Below are positions 14,536 to 35,794 of a stretch of DNA of 64,000 bases, piece by piece. Below the pieces are notes generated by a model. That model saw nothing but the letters and a program-made list of their open reading frames with translations. It did not search any database and was not told the origin of the DNA. The translations under genes were made by a program, and so were the position numbers. Source of the stretch: Clostridia bacterium (GTDB lineage Bacteria > Bacillota > Clostridia > UMGS1883 > UMGS1540); the NCBI GenBank assembly GCA_017620205.1, contig JAFZQX010000007.1, positions 62,001 through 126,000 of the forward strand, read 5' to 3'. Position 1 is the first letter of the stretch, and each line of letters opens with the position of its first letter.

Positions 14536-15171
14536 CTAATCGTCGAGATGGTCTATTGCATACTGCGCTTCTTCTTCCGTAAACTTTTCACCGTATTCGG
14601 AAACAAGCTGGTCATATATTTCCGAGGGGGACATATCAAGATTGTCTCTGTAAGATTTCGCGCTCTCGAGCGCTTCCTCGTTCCAGTCTGCTTCGAGATT
14701 GTCTATGGCGTACTGAGCCTCTTCTTCAGTGAATTCATCGCCGTATTCGGATGTCAGCTGATCATAAATCCCAAGCTTTGACTGATGCATGTTTTCAACG
14801 TAAGATTCGGCGCATTTTAGTGCCTGTTCTTTCCAATCGGCTTCAATATTGTCTATGGCGTACTGAGCCGCCTCTTCCGAAAACTTTTCGCCGTATTCGG
14901 ATGTCAGCTGTTTATAAAGCCCTTTTTTCGACATAGGCAAGGTATTCATGTACGATTCCGCTTTTTTGAGTGCGGATTTGTATTCCGAAGGTACGTTTGG
15001 ATCATCTTTTTCCGCCGCGTCGTTTTCGACCGCTTCTGTCTGATCCTGTGATTTTCCCGGTTTGTTTTTCTCCGCAGTTTCAGTATCCGTGCCGCAGGAG
15101 CAAAGAAGCAGTAAAACCGACATCAAAAGCGCGAGAAAAGTACACATTTTGCCATTTAAACTTATTTTCAT
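14536..15171 (-). CDS. Ltp family lipoprotein with three helical repeats
   Basis: A 211-residue lipoprotein. The signal peptide ends in a lipobox (LLCSC). After an acidic linker, three repeats of about 47 residues follow (about 63-110, 111-158, 159-209), each of the form A-SY-x-L-S-IYDQL-SEYG-FTEEEAQYAID. This is the Ltp repeat, a helix-turn-helix-like fold. The founding member, Ltp of Streptococcus temperate phage TP-J34, blocks DNA injection by other phages. Here there is no phage context, and clostridial chromosomal members are common, so a phage-exclusion role is only a possibility. ATG 15171 follows AGGAGAGGA. Confidence 0.85.
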   Translation of the reverse strand: MKISLNGKMCTFLALLMSVLLLLCSCGTDTETAEKNKPGKSQDQTEAVENDAAEKDDPNVPSEYKSALKKAESYMNTLPMSKKGLYKQLTSEYGEKFSEEAAQYAIDNIEADWKEQALKCAESYVENMHQSKLGIYDQLTSEYGDEFTEEEAQYAIDNLEADWNEEALESAKSYRDNLDMSPSEIYDQLVSEYGEKFTEEEAQYAIDHLDD

Positions 15172-16310: not shown

Positions 16311-16336
16311 AAAACGCGCCTGAAAAGGCGCGTTTT
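16311..16336. terminator. bidirectional terminator
   Basis: AAAACGCGCCT and AGGCGCGTTTT form an 11-bp stem with a GAAA loop, between the convergent genes ending at 16308 and 16344. Confidence 0.88.
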
Positions 16337-16343
16337 ATGTTTT

Positions 16344-18443
16344 CTAATCTAAAAATATTGCGGGCGAGTAAAGATAGCCCTGATAAATATCGCAGCCTGT
16401 TTCGTGCAAAGCTTCCTTCTGCTCTTCGGTTTCAACGTATTCCGCTATAACGCTTAAATTAAGGCTTTCCGCAAGGCTTGTTATCGACTGTATTATTTCT
16501 TTGCAGTTGTTGCCGCCGAAAATTCCCGTAACAAGAGTTCCGTCAAGCTTTATGAAGTCAAACAGGTTTTCTTTGAGATAATGAAGCGATGTTTGACCCA
16601 TGGAGAAGTCGTCAATCGCAAGGGACATACCGAGATCGCGCAGAGCATTAAATGTTTTTGTCATGCTCTCATCAAGAGAAAGGGCAACCTGCTCCGTAAC
16701 TTCAAGGCATATATTTTTGCCGGCGAATGGGTCCTTTGCACTGAGTTTTTGACAAAACTGCAGGAAGCGCGTTGTTTGTATTGTTCTGCCGGTTATGTTT
16801 ACCGAAAGTTTTGTGTTTTCACCGAATTTTTTTAAGAGAGCAGGTCTGTCGCGCAACGCACATTCAAGAACAGCTTCTTCAAGCTCGGGCAAAAAGCCGC
16901 CTTCTTCCGCAAGCTTTATAACTATCGGGGGATAGAGTATACCGTAAGCAGGGTGTTTCCACCTCAGAAGCGCCTCTGCGCCTACACACTCTCCCTGATA
17001 ATTGTATTGCGGCTGATATGCCAGTACAATACCTTGCTGCAAATCGTGCTTAAGCTCTGCACAAAGCGCTTTTGCAAATTCGCCGTAGATGTTTTTTTGT
17101 TCTATAAGTTTTACTGTCAAGAGTTCGTGCTCATTCTGGCGGAAATATTCTACGAACGAATCATATTCTCTGCGGTATTTCTCTTCGTCTCGCCTGTCAA
17201 GAAGGCGGATAAAGGGGAGGTATATCAAAACGCCGACTATTACGTTTACTATCTGAAGTATACTGCCCGCGGCGCTACCTGTTGCCCGGTATCCGCCGAG
17301 GATTATGGGCGTTGTCCATTCAACCGTTCCGGTAATTACGGGCACAAGCCCCAAGGCAGTCGCGATATATGCGATAGAATAGCAAACAAGAGGAACGGTT
17401 ACAAAAGGAATAAGCATTATGGGGTTAAAGATTATCGGCAGACCGAATACCATAAGCTCATTTATATTAAATATCATAGGCAGTGCCGCCGTATAGCCGA
17501 GACCGCGGCGCGCCCTGTTTCTTGAGAAAAGAATAATTGCTATAAGCAGGCAAATCGCAGAGCCGCAGCCGCCCATTAAAACAAAGCAGTCAAAGAACAC
17601 TTTGCTGAGTATCTTTGCGGGAGCGCCGCCTGCGGCAATTGCCGCTTGGTTTATCTCAAGGTTCGGCACAAAATACGTCTGCATAACGCTTTCGAGCGTA
17701 TCGCTTCCGTGAATACCGAAAAACCAAAGAACAGAAGAGAGCAATACAAAGAAAAAGCCTTTTAAAAAGCCTGTTTCTCCGAAAGAAAACAGCTTGTCAA
17801 ACGCTAAAACAAGAAGCTCTCTGAAAGAATCAACTTTGAAAACATATACGATAAATGCGTTAAAGGCGGCAAAGATAATTGCCGTTAGTGCCGTTGGAAT
17901 AACGTATGAAAGCATCTGGTTGAATTCGCGGTCTGCTCCGGTTGAATATGAACGGAGCTGACGTGAAATCAGCATGTTAAATATACGCAGATATAAAGCC
18001 GAAGCGCCGATACCCGTTATAATGGCAAGAAACATTGATTTCGGTCCAACGCTGGCGGTGCCGAATGTTTCAAGGTTAGTCCCCGCGAGAATAAAAAACG
18101 CGAGAAGCGAAGTGAAAATAACGCTTGCGGTCGAGGACATCGCGTTTTCTTTAAGTCGCGTATACGAACGGCTGATTGAGATTGTCATGTAAATACTCAG
18201 AACGCCGAAGGTTGCCGCATATACAAAGTCAAAAAACGATAATAAAAGACCGTTTGCAAAAGTTTCGATAAAATTCTGATATACTTCAAGCGGAAATGTT
18301 TTGAGTATAAGCGCAAAAGCGCCCAAAATAAGGATGGGTGTAATATTTAAAAGTCCGCCGCGTATGGCACGGACAATCGTCATGCTTTCTGTTTTTGCCA
18401 TGAAATCATAAATGCCGTTGTGTTTTTTTGTCTGTCCGGACAT
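16344..18443 (-). CDS. PTS EIIC-type membrane domain fused to a c-di-GMP phosphodiesterase (EAL) domain
   Basis: A 699-residue fusion. Residues 1-420 are an EIIC permease domain of the lactose/cellobiose type, with about ten membrane segments and motifs such as FGIHGSDTLESVM and FNINELMVFGLPI. Residues 440-699 are an EAL domain. It keeps the catalytic signature GAEALLRW (E490), SVNITG, EVTEQ, IDDFSMGQTSLHYL, KLDGTLV, AEYVETEEQ and QGYLYSP, so cyclic-di-GMP hydrolysis is likely. No EIIA or EIIB domain and no PTS gene is adjacent, so the EIIC part is more likely a sugar sensor than a transporter (inference). ATG 18443 follows AAAGGAGA. Confidence 0.9.
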   Translation of the reverse strand: MSGQTKKHNGIYDFMAKTESMTIVRAIRGGLLNITPILILGAFALILKTFPLEVYQNFIETFANGLLLSFFDFVYAATFGVLSIYMTISISRSYTRLKENAMSSTASVIFTSLLAFFILAGTNLETFGTASVGPKSMFLAIITGIGASALYLRIFNMLISRQLRSYSTGADREFNQMLSYVIPTALTAIIFAAFNAFIVYVFKVDSFRELLVLAFDKLFSFGETGFLKGFFFVLLSSVLWFFGIHGSDTLESVMQTYFVPNLEINQAAIAAGGAPAKILSKVFFDCFVLMGGCGSAICLLIAIILFSRNRARRGLGYTAALPMIFNINELMVFGLPIIFNPIMLIPFVTVPLVCYSIAYIATALGLVPVITGTVEWTTPIILGGYRATGSAAGSILQIVNVIVGVLIYLPFIRLLDRRDEEKYRREYDSFVEYFRQNEHELLTVKLIEQKNIYGEFAKALCAELKHDLQQGIVLAYQPQYNYQGECVGAEALLRWKHPAYGILYPPIVIKLAEEGGFLPELEEAVLECALRDRPALLKKFGENTKLSVNITGRTIQTTRFLQFCQKLSAKDPFAGKNICLEVTEQVALSLDESMTKTFNALRDLGMSLAIDDFSMGQTSLHYLKENLFDFIKLDGTLVTGIFGGNNCKEIIQSITSLAESLNLSVIAEYVETEEQKEALHETGCDIYQGYLYSPAIFLD

Positions 18444-18576
18444 AACCCAATCTCCTTTGTGAAAAATATCTTAATATAATAATAACACAAATCATTGAAA
18501 AATTCAATAAATATTACTATTGTATTTTTTGCTGTTTTGTATTAGAATGCAAGTATATATTGAAGGTGGTAAAAAA

Positions 18577-19539: not shown

Positions 19540-20670
19540 ATGAAAAAGTTATTGGCATTACTGATAAGCTGCGGCATTATTGCTATGTCGGGCACGGCGC
19601 TTGCGGAAGAAGCTTATGAAAGCGCCGAAACGCCTTCCGGCGAAGAAGCTTTGGTTAGCGAAGCGGCAGAAGAAAACGAAGAAGCTGTGGTTAGCGAAGC
19701 GGCAGAAGAAAACGAAGAAGCTGTGGCGGCAGAGGAAGAGTCAGAAGAGGAAACCGTTTCGGAAGAAGCGGAAGAGGAAGCCGCAAAGCAGGACGAAGAA
19801 AAAGAAAAAAGCGGCAAGAAAGCTTCAAAGGACAAAGGCGAGAAATCCAAAGAAAAGGGCGAAAAGTCGCAGGATAAAGGTGAAAAATCCAAGGACAAGG
19901 GCGAAAAGTCGCAGGATAAAGGTGAAAAATCCAAGGACAAGGGCGAAAAGTCGCAGGATAAAGGCGAGAAATCCAAGGACAAGGGCGAAAAGTCGCAGGA
20001 TAAAGGCGAGAAATCCAAAGAAAATGGCGAAAAGTCGCAGGATAAAGGTGAAAAATCCAAGGACAAGGGTCAGAAATCCCAAGATAAAGGCGAAAAGTCT
20101 AAAGACAAATCCGGCAATAAAAATACTTTGGGCAACGGCATAACAAAAGACATTCTCCGCGTCCGGAAAGAGCTCTTTAAATCAATTCACAAAGAGATTA
20201 AAGAATACATAAAAGCGGAAAAAGAGCTGTTTAAAAACGCCGACGCCGAGGCACGCGAAGAAATTTTAGCGGATATAGCCGCTTTAAAGCGCGAGCTTTC
20301 CGATTATACCATAGGCGCTTTTATAAAAGGCTGCGAGGTTGATTTTGAGGAATATGACGGCGTAAAACCCGAAATCGAAAATAACCGTACTCTTGTTCCG
20401 GTCCGCGCGATTCTCGAAAAATACGACGCCGAGCTTTCCTGGGACGGCGAGAGCAGAACAATTACGGTAACAAGAGGCGATACGGTTGTTGTTATGACAA
20501 TAGGCAGTACTGTCGCAGCCGTAAACGGCGAAGAAGTTACGGTTGAAGCTCCGCCCGTAATAAAAAATAACCGCACATTGGTGCCCATAAGGTTTTTGTC
20601 CGAGCAGTTTAATATGGACGTTTCGTGGGACGAAGACAGCCGCACGATAATAATAGAAGAACAAGAATAA
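19540..20670 (+). CDS. secreted heptad-repeat protein with copper amine oxidase N-like domain
   Basis: A 376-residue exported protein: signal peptide (1-22), an acidic Glu/Ala region (about 23-95, including two copies of SEAAEENEEAV), then about thirteen tandem copies of the heptad DKGEKS[K/Q] (about 98-188), a charged helical linker, and a C-terminal copper amine oxidase N-terminal-like domain (about 275-376) with the paired NNRTLVPVRAI and NNRTLVPIRFL motifs. Such domains are common clostridial surface modules of unknown ligand; the name does not imply oxidase activity. The repeat arm is probably an extended charged spacer in the cell wall. It lies just upstream of sigI-rsgI. Confidence 0.85.
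   Translation: MKKLLALLISCGIIAMSGTALAEEAYESAETPSGEEALVSEAAEENEEAVVSEAAEENEEAVAAEEESEEETVSEEAEEEAAKQDEEKEKSGKKASKDKGEKSKEKGEKSQDKGEKSKDKGEKSQDKGEKSKDKGEKSQDKGEKSKDKGEKSQDKGEKSKENGEKSQDKGEKSKDKGQKSQDKGEKSKDKSGNKNTLGNGITKDILRVRKELFKSIHKEIKEYIKAEKELFKNADAEAREEILADIAALKRELSDYTIGAFIKGCEVDFEEYDGVKPEIENNRTLVPVRAILEKYDAELSWDGESRTITVTRGDTVVVMTIGSTVAAVNGEEVTVEAPPVIKNNRTLVPIRFLSEQFNMDVSWDEDSRTIIIEEQE
19831..20103 (+). repeat. 21-bp coding tandem repeat
   Basis: About thirteen in-frame 21-bp units encoding DKGEKSK or DKGEKSQ alternate, so the higher-order unit is 42 bp. Adjacent units are nearly identical at the DNA level (GATAAAGGTGAAAAATCCAA variants), a setting for copy-number change by slippage or recombination without frameshift. 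Confidence 0.95.
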
Positions 20671-20723: not shown

Positions 20724-21419
20724 ATGAACATAAACGAGCGGGCGATGTCCGCAAAAGAGCAGAAAGATATACGCGAAGAGCTTATTAAAGAATATCAGAA
20801 TTATATAATTTCCGTGTGCAGCAAAACGGCGGGCGGATTTGTCCCTGCCTCAAGCGACACGGCTTCTGCCGGCATGCTCGCTTTTAACGAAGCAATTGAC
20901 AAATACGATATATCAAAGGGCAACTTTTTTGTATTTGCGGCGCAGATTATTAAAAACCGTGTTATTGATCATCTGCGCGCAGAATCCCGTTATAATAACA
21001 CAATACCGTTCAGCGCGCTTTCCGGGAAAAACGACAGCGGCGAAGATGTGCCGTTTGATGTTGAGGATACGGGCGCCGCTGTAACGGACTCGGCACTGGA
21101 GATTACGCTCCTTAAAGACGAGCTGTCGGAATACGGCATATCTTTTTTCGATTTGCCCGATTTCTCCCCGAAATCGTATAAAACAAAAAGGCATTGTCAG
21201 GACGTAATACGCTATATTATATCTTCGCCCGTGCTGATTAATTTTATCAAAGAAAAAAAGGCGCTGCCCATAAAGCTTATTCTCGGCAAAGTAACAGTTC
21301 CGGAGAAGGTTTTGGAGCGCCACAGAAAATATATAATTGCCGCCGTCGTTATTCTGGACGGCGATTACGAAAATCTGTCGGGATACTTGAGTTTTGCGAA
21401 AGGAGGCGCTGAGGATTGA
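20724..21419 (+). CDS. sigI: RNA polymerase sigma factor SigI
   Basis: A 231-residue sigma factor of the SigI type. The region-2 core is visible around SAGMLAFNEAIDKYDISKGNF and FAAQIIKNRVIDHLRAESRY. It lacks a conventional region 4; the C-terminal segment (RHCQDVIRYIISSPVLINF, LPIKLILGKVTVPEKVLERH) is the SigI-specific DNA-binding region. SigI factors respond to heat in Bacillus and to extracellular polysaccharides in cellulolytic clostridia. The gene overlaps rsgI by four bases (TTGA), the standard sigma/anti-sigma arrangement. ATG 20724 follows AGGA by seven bases. Confidence 0.93.
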   Translation: MNINERAMSAKEQKDIREELIKEYQNYIISVCSKTAGGFVPASSDTASAGMLAFNEAIDKYDISKGNFFVFAAQIIKNRVIDHLRAESRYNNTIPFSALSGKNDSGEDVPFDVEDTGAAVTDSALEITLLKDELSEYGISFFDLPDFSPKSYKTKRHCQDVIRYIISSPVLINFIKEKKALPIKLILGKVTVPEKVLERHRKYIIAAVVILDGDYENLSGYLSFAKGGAED

Positions 21420-22585
21420 AGGGGATTGTTACGGATATTAAAGACGCCCGCGCGGTCATACTCAAAAGCGACGGCACCTTTGAAAAGATTAAGAATAAAA
21501 ACTATATAATAGGCCAGGAAATAAAAAAGGATACGTCCTCTGTCAAAAAGCAATTGCTCATCGCGGCTTGCTTTTTACTTGTATTTACGTTTTATTTCGG
21601 CGGTGTTTACGCATACCGTACGCCGGTTGAGTATATATACGTTGATATAAACCCGAGCCTGCGCCTTGATATAAATATGTTTCACAGGGTAATCTCCGTT
21701 ACGCGCCTTAACACAGACGCCGAAAGCATAAATTCTTTTGACAAAAAGCCCGAGAAATGCGTTGAGGGAATAATAGACGAGTGTATCGAAAAAGGGTATT
21801 TAAACGGGGACAATAACGGCATTGAAATCGCCGTTTCGGATAACTTTAAGGAAATAGAAACAAAACTGAATAAGGACTGTGAAAAATACAGTAAATCGGG
21901 TTATGACGTAGTCGTTTATTCGGCGGATAAGGAAGACGTTGAGTATGCGAATACTCACGGCGTATCCGTTAACAGGAAGAAAGCCTCAAAGAGAGAGAAC
22001 GAAAAGAAAGCCGCAGAGAAAGCTACGGTAAATAAAGATAAAAAAACTGCCGCGGATAATACGGAAAATTCAGGAAAAACGCAGGAAAACAGCGCGGCGG
22101 AGACGAAAAAACAAAAGGATTATAAGACATCAAACGGCAAGACAGGCGGAGTGGAAGGGAGCGCGGCTTCAAACGGCAAAAAAGCCGGAGCAGATAATAC
22201 CGCCAAATCAAACGTAAACAAATCGGAAACACCTGAAACCGCTATATCAAACGAAAACATTACGGAAACGCCGGAAACCGCCAAATCAAACGGAAATACG
22301 GCAGAAGATGAGAATAAGAAAAGTTCCGCGTCGCACAGCAAAAAGGAAGAAAAAGCTAAGAATAATCAAAGCGGCAGCTCCGCTAAAACTCAAAAAGAAG
22401 AAAACAAAGCACAAAATCCAAAAGAGGAAAAGATAAAAGAAAATAAGGAAACGCAAAAGGAAGCGCCGCAAAAGTCCGGAAAAAAAGCGAAAGAAGAAAA
22501 AACAAAGGAAAAGGGCGATATGGGCAATAACGGCAAAAAGGATTCCGATAAAGAAAACAAGAAACAAAACGATGAAAGCCAATAG
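21416..22585 (+). CDS. rsgI: anti-sigma-I factor RsgI with disordered extracellular tail
   Basis: A 389-residue single-pass membrane protein: cytoplasmic anti-sigma domain (1-45; GIVTDIKDARAVILKSDGTF), transmembrane helix (about 46-66), and a conserved extracellular domain (about 67-180) with VDINPS, where RsgI proteins autocleave between Asn and Pro (N79-P80 here). The tail from about residue 185 to 389 is low-complexity Lys/Glu/Asn/Thr-rich, with repeated SNxN(K/T)-TPETA-like units. No carbohydrate-binding module is present, unlike cellulosomal clostridia. TTG start overlapping the sigI stop, with GGAGG ten bases upstream. Expected to hold SigI until regulated proteolysis. Confidence 0.92.
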   Translation: MKGIVTDIKDARAVILKSDGTFEKIKNKNYIIGQEIKKDTSSVKKQLLIAACFLLVFTFYFGGVYAYRTPVEYIYVDINPSLRLDINMFHRVISVTRLNTDAESINSFDKKPEKCVEGIIDECIEKGYLNGDNNGIEIAVSDNFKEIETKLNKDCEKYSKSGYDVVVYSADKEDVEYANTHGVSVNRKKASKRENEKKAAEKATVNKDKKTAADNTENSGKTQENSAAETKKQKDYKTSNGKTGGVEGSAASNGKKAGADNTAKSNVNKSETPETAISNENITETPETAKSNGNTAEDENKKSSASHSKKEEKAKNNQSGSSAKTQKEENKAQNPKEEKIKENKETQKEAPQKSGKKAKEEKTKEKGDMGNNGKKDSDKENKKQNDESQ

Positions 22586-32711: not shown

Positions 32712-33398
32712 ATGGATAATTTATTTAACAATATTTTGGTAAACGTTTCAAACGATATAACGCCTCAGTCGGCAATTCTGACAATAGTAATAGCAGCTTT
32801 GTTCGGTGCGGTGATAGCTTTCACGTATTACAAAACACAGGATGACGAAGTTTATCAGAAAAGTCTTGCGGTAACGCTTTTGATGCTCCCCGTAATTCTT
32901 TCGGTTATTATAATTTTTGTCGGCAGCAATATTGCAAGAGCGTTCAGTCTTGCCGGCACGCTTTCCATTATAAGATTCAGAAGCGCACCGGGAGACCCCA
33001 AGGATATTGGCTTTATCTTTTTTGACATAGCTGCGGGACTCGCTTGCGGCGTAGGCCTTTACGGATACGGAATACTTTTTGTTTTGGCGCTTTGCGTAAT
33101 CATTTTCGCGGTAACAAAATTCGGCTTTTTTGAGAAAAAGAAAACGCGTAAAACCTTAAAAATCACGATCCCGGAGGATTTAAACTATCAGGGCGCTTTT
33201 GACGATATTCTTGAAAAGTATACGGAAAAGTATACGCTCACAAAGATTAAAACAACGGATCTCGGCGCTTTGTTTGAGCTTTGCTACAGCGTACTGATGA
33301 ACGACGGACAAAACGAACAGGAATTTTTAAATGAGCTGAGAGTAAGAAACGGAAACCTTAAAATTACGCTTGCGGTTGCTCCGCAAAGCATAAAATGA
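32712..33398 (+). CDS. DUF4956 membrane protein
   Basis: A 228-residue protein with four membrane helices in the first 140 residues and a soluble C-terminal domain of about 85 residues. The motif FSLAGTLSIIRFRSAPGDPK, followed by DIGFIFFDIAAGLA, is the DUF4956 signature. Genes of this family almost always adjoin VTC-domain genes, which suggests a shared membrane process. It starts 15 bp after the VTC gene and its stop overlaps an ATG of the next frame. Confidence 0.9.
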   Translation: MDNLFNNILVNVSNDITPQSAILTIVIAALFGAVIAFTYYKTQDDEVYQKSLAVTLLMLPVILSVIIIFVGSNIARAFSLAGTLSIIRFRSAPGDPKDIGFIFFDIAAGLACGVGLYGYGILFVLALCVIIFAVTKFGFFEKKKTRKTLKITIPEDLNYQGAFDDILEKYTEKYTLTKIKTTDLGALFELCYSVLMNDGQNEQEFLNELRVRNGNLKITLAVAPQSIK

Positions 33399-33412
33399 AA
33401 GGGGTTGAAATT

Positions 33413-35794
33413 ATGAAAAGGTTAAGAACCATACTTATATTATTGCTTTCATTAATATTTCTTTGCTCGTGCACGGCTATAAGCGCGTACACCGAAAACA
33501 GTTCGGCTGAACAAACGGATGTAATAAAGGTTTATTTGGACGGCGAAGAAATAGTTTTTGACGTAGCCCCCGAAATTGAGGATGACAGAGTATTGGTTCC
33601 GATGCGCGCAGTGTTTGAGGCGTTCGGAGCAAAGGTAAAATGGGACGGTGAAACAAAAACCGTAACTTCAAAGAAAAAATCAAAAACGATTGAGCTGACA
33701 ATAGACAGTAAAGAAATTAAGAAAAACGATGAAACATATGAGTCGGACGTGGCGCCGAAAATCAAAGACGGCAGAACGCTGATTCCTTTAAGAGCTGTAA
33801 GCGAGCTGTTGGGACTTGACGTTTCATGGGACAATGATACAAGGACAGTTAATATTACAAGTGATAAGGAAGAGGACGAGAGCTGGAAGGAAAACACGGG
33901 CGCGATAAATCTTGATAATTTAAGCGTTTCGGGCGACGGCTTATCCGCAGACGGAAAAGTTATTACGGTTTCAAAGGGCGGCGACTATACAGTAACGGGA
34001 GAAGCCGGTGACGCGCAGATAGTTGTTGATACGGAAGACAAAGTAAAACTGAGACTTTCGGGAATGAGCCTTAAAAATGAGAGTGGCTCCGCGATCTTTA
34101 TTAAAAACGCGGACAAAGCATATATAACGCTCACGGAAGATACCGAAAACTATCTCGAAGACGCGGCGGTATACGAAGGTGCGGACGAAAAGGAAAAAGG
34201 CGCACTGACCGCGCGCGACAGTCTTGAAATTAAAGGCAAAGGCACGCTTTATGTTAAGGGCAATACGGGGCACGGCATTTTCGCTTCGGACAGCTTGGAG
34301 ATTGAAAACGGAAATATAAAGATTGACGCTGAAAATGACGGCGTTCATGTAAACGACACCTTTAAAATGACGGGCGGCAGCCTTAAAATAGAAGCCGGAG
34401 GCGACGGCATTGCTTCTGACGAAATAGTTGATATTTTGGACGGCACCATAGAAATCACAACAACGGGCGACGTACCCGCCGGCACAAACGAAAGAGGCTT
34501 CGGCCGGATGCAGACGGCAGAGCAAGAAACAGAGGAAGAAGATTCCGTTTCAAGCAAGGGCATTAAAGCAGGCTGGATGCTTGATATTTCGGGCGGCAGC
34601 ATAGATATAACTTCAACAGATCACGCAATCCACTGCACATCTGATATAAATATAAGCGGCGGCGATATTAATATTTCGTCCGGCAACAAGGGTATATCCG
34701 CACACGAGAATATTACAATCGACGGCGGAAACTTCAATATTCCGAAAGCGACCGAGGGTATTGAAAGCAAAGCTATAATGACAATAAATGACGGAAGCTT
34801 CTATATAATAGCAAGCGACGACGGCTTAAACGCAGGCGGCGGAGACGGATTCGGCGGTATGCCGTTCGGCGAAGGTTTTCCGCAGATGCAGGACGGAGAG
34901 TTTCCGCAGATGCCGCAGGACGGTCAGTTCCCCGGTATGCAGAACGGAGAATTTCCGCAGAGACAGAGGGGCGGCAGGGGCGATATGACGGTGCCCGATA
35001 TGACATCGGAAGCTACGCTGCAGGCTGAAAACGGCATGCGCGGCGAGAGAGACCGGGGAACGCCTCCCGAAATGGACGGCGGAAACGGAGAGTTTCAGCA
35101 GAGACAAAGAGGAAACGGCCGGGAAATGACGCCTCCGGATATGACATCAGAGGCAACGCCGCAGACCGGAAACGGCATGAGGGGCGGCAGAGATGATATG
35201 ATGATGCCTCCCGAAGCAAACGGTGAAAACGGCGGAAATCAAAGAATGCCAATGGGCGGCATGGGTTTCGGCGGCAATTCAACGGAGATAAGCACAGAGC
35301 ATCACATAGAGATAAACGGCGGCACGTTTTATATAAACGCAGTAAATGACGGAATTGACGCAAACGGTTCTCTCGTAATTGAAGGCGGAGACATTGTAAT
35401 AGAAGGAAGAGCAAATATAACTCCCGGCGAAATGGGTCTTGATACCGATAAGGCGCTTATAATAAGAGGCGGCACGGTGCTTGCTGCGGGCAGTACGATA
35501 AGCGAAGCGGGAGCAGAGCAGAATACGGCGGTTATATATTTAAGCGAAGCGGTTGCGGCAGGCTCGGAATTTAAAATAAATGATAAGAGTGGCAACACTG
35601 TGGCTTCAATAGATAAAACGCAGAAGCAGTTTTCGCAGATACTCTGTTCATCTTCTGAGCTTCGCGAAGGCGAAGAATATGAAATTACCGTAAACGGTAC
35701 GGTAACGGATACATTTACCGTTTCAGGAAGCGTTACAACAGTAGGAGAGGTGCAAATGGGCTCGTTTGGTATGGGCAGAGGAGAAATGCGGTAA
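33413..35794 (+). CDS. lipoprotein with copper amine oxidase N-like and Cthe_2159-type beta-helix domains
   Basis: A 793-residue surface protein: lipoprotein signal peptide (FLCSC), a copper amine oxidase N-terminal-like domain (about 36-150, paired DDRVLVPMRAVFEAFG and DGRTLIPLRAVSELLG motifs), then a right-handed beta-helix of the Cthe_2159 type (about 165-480 and 615-760) with repeated strand-turn units such as ISGGDINISSGNKGISA. Cthe_2159 binds polygalacturonate-like polymers. A Gly/Met/Pro/Gln/Arg-rich insert (about 475-620), with two copies of a DMTSEAT-x-Q-x2-NGMRG unit, interrupts the helix. I start at ATG 33413 because AAAGGGG precedes it; ATG 33395 overlaps the DUF4956 stop. Confidence 0.87.
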   Translation: MKRLRTILILLLSLIFLCSCTAISAYTENSSAEQTDVIKVYLDGEEIVFDVAPEIEDDRVLVPMRAVFEAFGAKVKWDGETKTVTSKKKSKTIELTIDSKEIKKNDETYESDVAPKIKDGRTLIPLRAVSELLGLDVSWDNDTRTVNITSDKEEDESWKENTGAINLDNLSVSGDGLSADGKVITVSKGGDYTVTGEAGDAQIVVDTEDKVKLRLSGMSLKNESGSAIFIKNADKAYITLTEDTENYLEDAAVYEGADEKEKGALTARDSLEIKGKGTLYVKGNTGHGIFASDSLEIENGNIKIDAENDGVHVNDTFKMTGGSLKIEAGGDGIASDEIVDILDGTIEITTTGDVPAGTNERGFGRMQTAEQETEEEDSVSSKGIKAGWMLDISGGSIDITSTDHAIHCTSDINISGGDINISSGNKGISAHENITIDGGNFNIPKATEGIESKAIMTINDGSFYIIASDDGLNAGGGDGFGGMPFGEGFPQMQDGEFPQMPQDGQFPGMQNGEFPQRQRGGRGDMTVPDMTSEATLQAENGMRGERDRGTPPEMDGGNGEFQQRQRGNGREMTPPDMTSEATPQTGNGMRGGRDDMMMPPEANGENGGNQRMPMGGMGFGGNSTEISTEHHIEINGGTFYINAVNDGIDANGSLVIEGGDIVIEGRANITPGEMGLDTDKALIIRGGTVLAAGSTISEAGAEQNTAVIYLSEAVAAGSEFKINDKSGNTVASIDKTQKQFSQILCSSSELREGEEYEITVNGTVTDTFTVSGSVTTVGEVQMGSFGMGRGEMR

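Follow-up and report, generated by a model that had tools for sequence, protein, structure and literature searches.

RESULTS

A gene joining an EIIC permease to an EAL domain

The window, a stretch of 64,000 nucleotides from a Clostridia bacterium, carries on its minus strand a gene for a single protein with two halves. The N-terminal half is a PTS EIIC permease, and the C-terminal half is an EAL domain. The gene-level features are as follows.

16344..18443, minus strand: EIIC-EAL fusion gene, 699 aa (open frame, ATG start, two Pfam domains)
17184..18398, minus strand: EIIC half, lactose/cellobiose type, aa 16 to 420 (TIGR00410, 3qnq match, model)
16362..17051, minus strand: EAL c-di-GMP phosphodiesterase domain, aa 465 to 694 (PF00563, catalytic residues, solved EAL structures)
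18452..18457, minus strand: likely ribosome-binding site AAGGAG, seen in the sequence 8 bases upstream of the ATG
18479..18507, minus strand: promoter-like site TTGAAT-17-TATTAT (consensus scan; 9 such sites in the region against 7.4 expected)
16311..16336, no strand assigned: weak terminator-like hairpin with an 11-pair stem, located between the fusion gene and the YjbR gene convergent to it (5 such sites in the region against 4.8 expected)

Pfam found exactly two domains in the 699-aa protein. PTS_EIIC (PF02378) spans aa 30 to 351 (E = 1.2e-27; 97.3 bits against a cutoff of 30.7, which places this half in the EIIC fold), and EAL (PF00563) spans aa 465 to 694 (E = 5.9e-54; 183.4 bits against a cutoff of 31.3, which assigns the second half to the EAL domain). 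Neither an EIIA nor an EIIB domain was found by Pfam within the protein, in agreement with the sequence-only reading, an earlier model-made note on this DNA. The TIGR00410 model matched aa 16 to 420 at 210.9 bits, which is below the curated cutoff of 236 for this subfamily (NCBIfam lactose/cellobiose EIIC models). In a phmmer search, the best solved relative of the EIIC half was the ChbC transporter 3qnq (E = 2e-47), and the EAL half matched many solved EAL proteins, with E-values down to 2.2e-34. These E-values and the related loci, of which there are at least 80, rule out a chance match or a miscalled frame. The promoter and terminator scans of the region barely exceeded shuffled sequence and are weak evidence.

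The fusion gene stands alone, flanked by a divergent DUF445 gene and a convergent YjbR-type gene. Given these neighbors, we rejected the idea that the window's copy sits in a sugar or c-di-GMP operon. The host genome (G000) has 3 EAL and 7 GGDEF hits, and the only one on the window's contig (C28) is the EAL domain of the fusion itself. The earlier statement that the window has no further c-di-GMP gene therefore holds for GGDEF and EAL genes. Rfam gave no match on the window at the gathering score, and thus no catalogued c-di-GMP riboswitch.

Other genes of the window were recorded in passing. Two genes from the fusion, a Sigma70_r2 sigma factor (20724 to 21419, plus strand) overlaps an RsgI-type anti-sigma factor (21416 to 22585, plus strand) that has a long low-complexity tail. 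SigI/RsgI pairs serve in polysaccharide sensing in some clostridia. The gene at 19540 to 20670 (plus strand) encodes near-identical short Lys/Glu/Asp/Ser/Gly repeats (GEKSKDKGEKSQDK...) followed by a Cu_amine_oxidN1 domain. The minus-strand gene at 14536 to 15171 encodes a lipoprotein that carries three copies of the Lipoprotein_Ltp repeat (PF07553, E = 9.7e-75), and the plus-strand gene at 33395 to 35794 encodes a 799-aa protein with Cu_amine_oxidN1 and Cthe_2159 carbohydrate-binding domains.

The fusion occurs under several phylum labels

A scan of genome contigs gave near full-length fusion matches at at least 80 loci (L049 to L128), under ten phylum labels. The order EIIC then EAL, whose conservation in relatives had been proposed as a check, is thus kept widely. 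At two of these loci (L072 and L104) the reading frame is broken, by sequencing error or decay. Among the loci listed, most record titles are Clostridia, many of them from rumen. Further titles are Zoogloeaceae, other Betaproteobacteria, Campylobacterota, Desulfovibrio, Desulfamplus, Synergistaceae, Treponema, Rhizobiales, and Cohaesibacter. Planctomycetaceae, Gordonibacter, and Abditibacteriota are each represented by a single bin, and some of these single-bin labels may reflect mis-binning.

The fusion is patchy even inside the window's own family. The full fusion was present in 3 of 147 host relatives (G000, G001, and G114), and a fourth copy (G049) is cut by a contig end. A full-length copy in a same-family genome is 73% identical to the window's protein, and one in another family of the class is 37% identical; the aligned fusions are 30 to 72% identical to it. 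A tree built on the EIIC region (93 rows) separates the 83 fused sequences from 10 stand-alone EIICs by a single branch (SH-aLRT 99). This was a quick tree without bootstrap, and its small outgroup consisted of 3qnq and 9 stand-alone EIICs. Because those nine were found with the fusion as the query, the one-branch result holds on a narrow sample.

The sugar site is kept and the PxxVP loop motif is lost

We then mapped the following elements of the EIIC half.

17709..17711, minus strand: H245, sugar-site histidine, equivalent to 3qnq H250 (83 of 83 fusions, alignment to 3qnq)
17457..17459, minus strand: E329, sugar-site glutamate, equivalent to 3qnq E334 (83 of 83 fusions, alignment to 3qnq)
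17931..17957, minus strand: TM4-TM5 loop, aa 163 to 171, with PxxVP replaced (coil between modelled helices 134-162 and 172-202)

W240, H245, N326, E329, and W376 do not vary among the 83 aligned fusions, and they align to W245, H250, N331, E334, and W382 of 3qnq. We take H250 and E334 of 3qnq to contact the sugar, from the ChbC literature. The TM4-TM5 loop shows the opposite pattern. Every one of the 10 stand-alone EIICs and of the 10 plasmid EIICs (cellobiose, chitobiose, and lactose types) has PxxVP in this loop, but only 1 of 83 fusions does (L125). The plasmid proteins were hand-picked from 40 listed hits of 678 records; nine were annotated and one was not. The window's protein has SYSTGADREF at this position. 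In the usual EIIC topology the N terminus is inside, which makes the TM4-TM5 loop cytoplasmic. The loss of PxxVP would correspond to a lost contact with EIIB.

The EAL half retains its catalytic residues

The key EAL residues named in the sequence-only reading are present in the window's protein (E490, N549, E581/E584, D611/D612, K632, and E668/E671). In the alignment, E490, N549, E581, E584, D611, K632, and E668 are identical in all 82 fusion rows that have letters at these positions. Loop 6 is mostly DDF[SG]MG[HQ][TS]S across the family and DDFSMGQTS in the window's protein, compared with DDFGTGYSS in the two solved EAL enzymes that were aligned. From these residues, the EAL half is likely, but not certain, to be catalytically active.

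One predicted helix links the two halves

An AlphaFold2 model built from 52 of the 83 aligned fusions had a mean pLDDT of 89.8 and a pTM of 0.78. A single-sequence fold of the EIIC half alone reached a mean pLDDT of only 42.2 and was discarded. The fusion model matched 3qnq_D with a Z score of 29.7 (327 residues aligned, rmsd 9.3) and solved EAL structures with Z scores of up to 27.3. It places one feature at the junction.

17136..17273, minus strand: one continuous helix, aa 391 to 436, running out of the last membrane span and into the linker towards EAL (AlphaFold2 model)

The spacing between F411 and Y476 is 64 to 67 residues in 76 of 82 fusions, and the sequence between them varies. Near-constant length with free sequence is the pattern that a signalling helix would show. 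EAL enzymes are commonly dimers. ChbC is a dimer as well, and ChbC and MalT work by an elevator mechanism, according to the available excerpt of PMC7329351. A dimer-to-dimer coupling of EIIC and EAL is therefore plausible.

The host genome lacks enzyme I and a lactose/cellobiose-type EIIB

The host genome is 2.34 Mb and is rated 100% complete. Six-frame searches of it found neither the enzyme I N-terminal domain (PF05524) nor an EIIB of the lactose/cellobiose type (PF02302). The only PF02378 EIIC was the fusion itself. The PF05524, PF02302, and PF02378 searches were positive in 7, 6, and 7 of 14 control genomes, respectively. They covered enzyme I, the PF02302 type of EIIB, and the PF02378 type of EIIC. 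An EIIB elsewhere in the host genome was thus rejected for the PF02302 type. The genome does have an HPr gene (G000:C15:5964-6206; L044 1477-1770, minus strand) with intact GLHARPA and KSLLG motifs, yet no enzyme I, and there is a second, weak HPr match. HPr by itself is no phosphorelay.

We surveyed enzyme I in 77 genomes, represented by 78 of the 80 loci listed (L124 and L128 share a genome, and L110 and L119 fell outside the survey). Among the loci listed, enzyme I was absent from 26 of the 77 fusion genomes (21 of 40 plus 5 of 37), a count inflated by the fact that most of these genomes, like those of the comparison set, are metagenome bins of unknown completeness. For the best-ranked loci listed, L049 to L070, the count was 14 of 22. 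The PF02302 EIIB was also absent in 24 of the 26. Enzyme I was present in the other 51 of 77, which refutes its absence as a family-wide rule. In 14 of these 51 genomes, chosen by hand, PF02302 was present in 8 and absent in 6. Desulfosporosinus hippei DSM 8344, a culture-collection strain, has the fusion and neither enzyme I nor a PF02302 EIIB.

PF02378 EIIC scored over the cutoff in 46 of the 147 host relatives, which leaves 42 once the four with the fusion are removed. Of these non-fusion relatives, 38 had enzyme I and 4 did not. The four without it are G014, G020, and G024, which share one genus code, and G074, and they may reflect incompleteness or other PTS-free EIICs. A Fisher test, with relatedness ignored, gave p = 0.0038. 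On the EIIC tree, the enzyme I label requires at least 18 changes; counting the starred branches only, 10 are forced for the group without enzyme I. The fusion is therefore kept in many lineages without a PTS, and it also occurs alongside one.

A chitoporin-like gene adjoins the fusion in some diderm bacteria

In 10 of the 80 loci listed, a porin gene lies directly downstream of the fusion, often with an overlap of a few bases (L096, L097, L100, L102, L103, L108, L110, L117, L119, and L127). The labels of these ten loci are all diderm, with eight Betaproteobacteria, one Campylobacterota, and one Desulfovibrio. The porins are chitoporin-like and of the OprD family. A profile of the ten matched solved chitoporins with E = 1.4e-104, and the next porin with E = 1.5e-7. 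The NCBIfam chitoporin model led for the four porins that were scanned, at 299 to 354 bits, below its cutoff of 750. Chitoporin admits chitooligosaccharides. The 3qnq-type ChbC serves a diacetylchitobiose PTS, as the title of the structure states. Because of these two associations, a chitobiose-like ligand is our best guess for the chitoporin branch.

Other neighborhoods differ. In one sub-branch (L073, L074, L077, and L098), an FGGY carbohydrate kinase lies directly upstream (3 to 59 bp) and an AraC regulator lies on the other side, as assigned by a Pfam scan of one member per group. These neighbors are a further hint of a sugar link. GGDEF genes adjoin L106 and L120, a GGDEF-EAL gene adjoins L112, an alpha-amylase adjoins L069, and a phosphoglucomutase adjoins L064. 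In the window's own branch, the ten upstream neighbors that were scanned gave no common theme and no pointer to a sugar. They were a macro domain, a hybrid kinase, a response regulator, a GH31 match under the cutoff, an iron alcohol dehydrogenase, an AI-2E transporter, a PLP enzyme, a helicase, a serpin, and one protein without a match. Therefore, the ligand in this branch may differ.

DISCUSSION

We suggest that the fusion is probably a membrane sugar receptor derived from a PTS permease, in which disaccharide occupancy, and not phosphorylation, sets c-di-GMP hydrolysis via the last helix. Uptake through such channels normally depends on machinery that is missing from the host, and this is why we regard the protein as a receptor. 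The EIIC half would bind a disaccharide of the chitobiose or cellobiose type, with a chitobiose-like sugar as the leading candidate. It would no longer meet EIIB or be driven by phosphate. Ligand binding may shift the EIIC transport domain between conformations, and the last membrane helix, which is predicted to continue as one helix, may relay this shift to the EAL domain. The rate of c-di-GMP hydrolysis, by an enzyme whose retained residues suggest activity, would then go up or down. The sequence-only reading had pictured a membrane sensor that probably does not phosphorylate sugar. Both parts of this picture gain from a host genome that has no enzyme I and no PF02302 EIIB anywhere and from the family-wide loss of PxxVP, and the sensor from the retained sugar site as well. 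The same reading had sugar binding lower c-di-GMP, but binding might instead slow the enzyme. The receptor model also draws on the conserved EAL catalytic residues, on the long predicted helix with its near-constant linker, and on the chitoporin gene in 10 of the 80 loci listed. The presence of enzyme I in 51 of 77 fusion genomes, of PF02302 EIIB in 8 of the 14 of these that were sampled, the four non-fusion relatives without enzyme I, the lack of a sugar-related neighbor in the window's branch, and the departure of loop 6 from DFGTGYSS count against it. For the family as a whole, we lean slightly towards a single origin of receptor-permeases now spread over several phyla, with disaccharide occupancy setting hydrolysis without phosphotransfer and with a diderm branch that has its own chitoporin.

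The main rival is a transceptor whose EIIC still passes sugar by facilitated diffusion and whose EAL domain reports the flux. The retained transport domain and sugar-site residues would suit it, as would the match of the model to the elevator-type PTS permease fold (available excerpt of PMC7329351). However, there is no dedicated sugar-catabolic neighbor in the window, and none recurs as a theme across its branch; we consider continued transport unlikely. The anchor alternative holds that EIIC merely tethers the protein to the membrane, or that EAL is inactive and only binds c-di-GMP. It could draw on the altered loop 6 across the family. It is hard to reconcile with a sugar site as invariant as the EAL catalytic residues among proteins only 30 to 72% identical to the window's, because a mere anchor would not retain such residues. 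An inactive EAL is likewise at odds with the counted catalytic residues, retained in 82 of 82. We regard this alternative as very improbable.

A third possibility is that EIIC receives the phosphorylation state of the PTS and passes it on to control EAL. According to a 2022 review, PTS_EIIC acts in c-di-GMP proteins as a phosphoreceiver, and its state of phosphorylation determines the output (available excerpt of PMC8846402). In the nearest studied case, the EAL phosphodiesterase PdeS of Vibrio cholerae is controlled by EIIA-Glc phosphorylation (available excerpt of PMC6877527). The host's HPr with its GLHARPA motif and the enzyme I of 51 of the 77 fusion genomes listed would agree with this mode. 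However, the host has no enzyme I, nor do 26 of the 77 fusion genomes surveyed; PF02302 is missing as well from 24 of these 26, and the PxxVP loop motif is gone in 82 of 83 fusions. Neither the phosphoreceiver view nor the PdeS mode fits a genome without enzyme I, and our data argue against the phosphoreceiver view of EIIC in such proteins. We therefore give PTS control of the fusion little credence.

The receptor that we favor can be compared with several known systems. Transceptors are transporter-derived receptors, in which a permease body is reused to report a nutrient. The fusion would share this reuse, but its output is a joined second-messenger enzyme. It has the fold (Z score 29.7) and the sugar-site residues of the lactose, cellobiose, and chitobiose EIICs of the PTS (LacE, CelB, and ChbC; 3qnq). 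Unlike them, it has no PxxVP and is joined to EAL, and its host has neither PF02302 EIIB nor enzyme I. With the solved EAL phosphodiesterases RocR, YahA, PdeA, and MorA it shares the domain, the catalytic residues, and the modelled fold, whereas its input domain is a transporter and its loop 6 is mostly DDF[SG]MG[HQ][TS]S. In PdeS, sugar supply governs an EAL phosphodiesterase, as we propose for the fusion. However, PdeS is controlled by a separate PTS protein through the phosphorylation state of the latter (available excerpt of PMC6877527), and the fusion has a sugar-binding permease within the enzyme.

A 2011 PLoS Genetics survey reportedly listed EAL proteins of Clostridioides difficile that contain a PTS EIIC domain. 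The pairing of EIIC with an EAL-type domain is already in print, since the 2022 review includes PTS_EIIC, from Pfam listings, as a rare one among the domains found with c-di-GMP enzymes (available excerpt of PMC8846402). The proteins of that excerpt show the same kind of domain pairing as ours, but it calls EIIC a phosphoreceiver, whereas here the phosphorylating PTS is missing. In the open-licence PMC literature we found no functional study of an EIIC-EAL protein and one relevant review, PMC8846402. The available excerpts of PMC10333796, PMC6200980, PMC11139211, PMC9371280, and PMC3764933 contained nothing on such a protein.

The pairing with chitoporin offers a testable ligand, chitobiose. 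Genomes without enzyme I, such as that of Desulfosporosinus hippei DSM 8344, offer a clean test of PTS-free sensing. If the receptor model is true, the fusion would be an example of an elevator-type transporter that became a receptor. It would also connect an extracellular disaccharide to c-di-GMP directly and without the PTS, in a family that, by its record titles, is rich in rumen bacteria.
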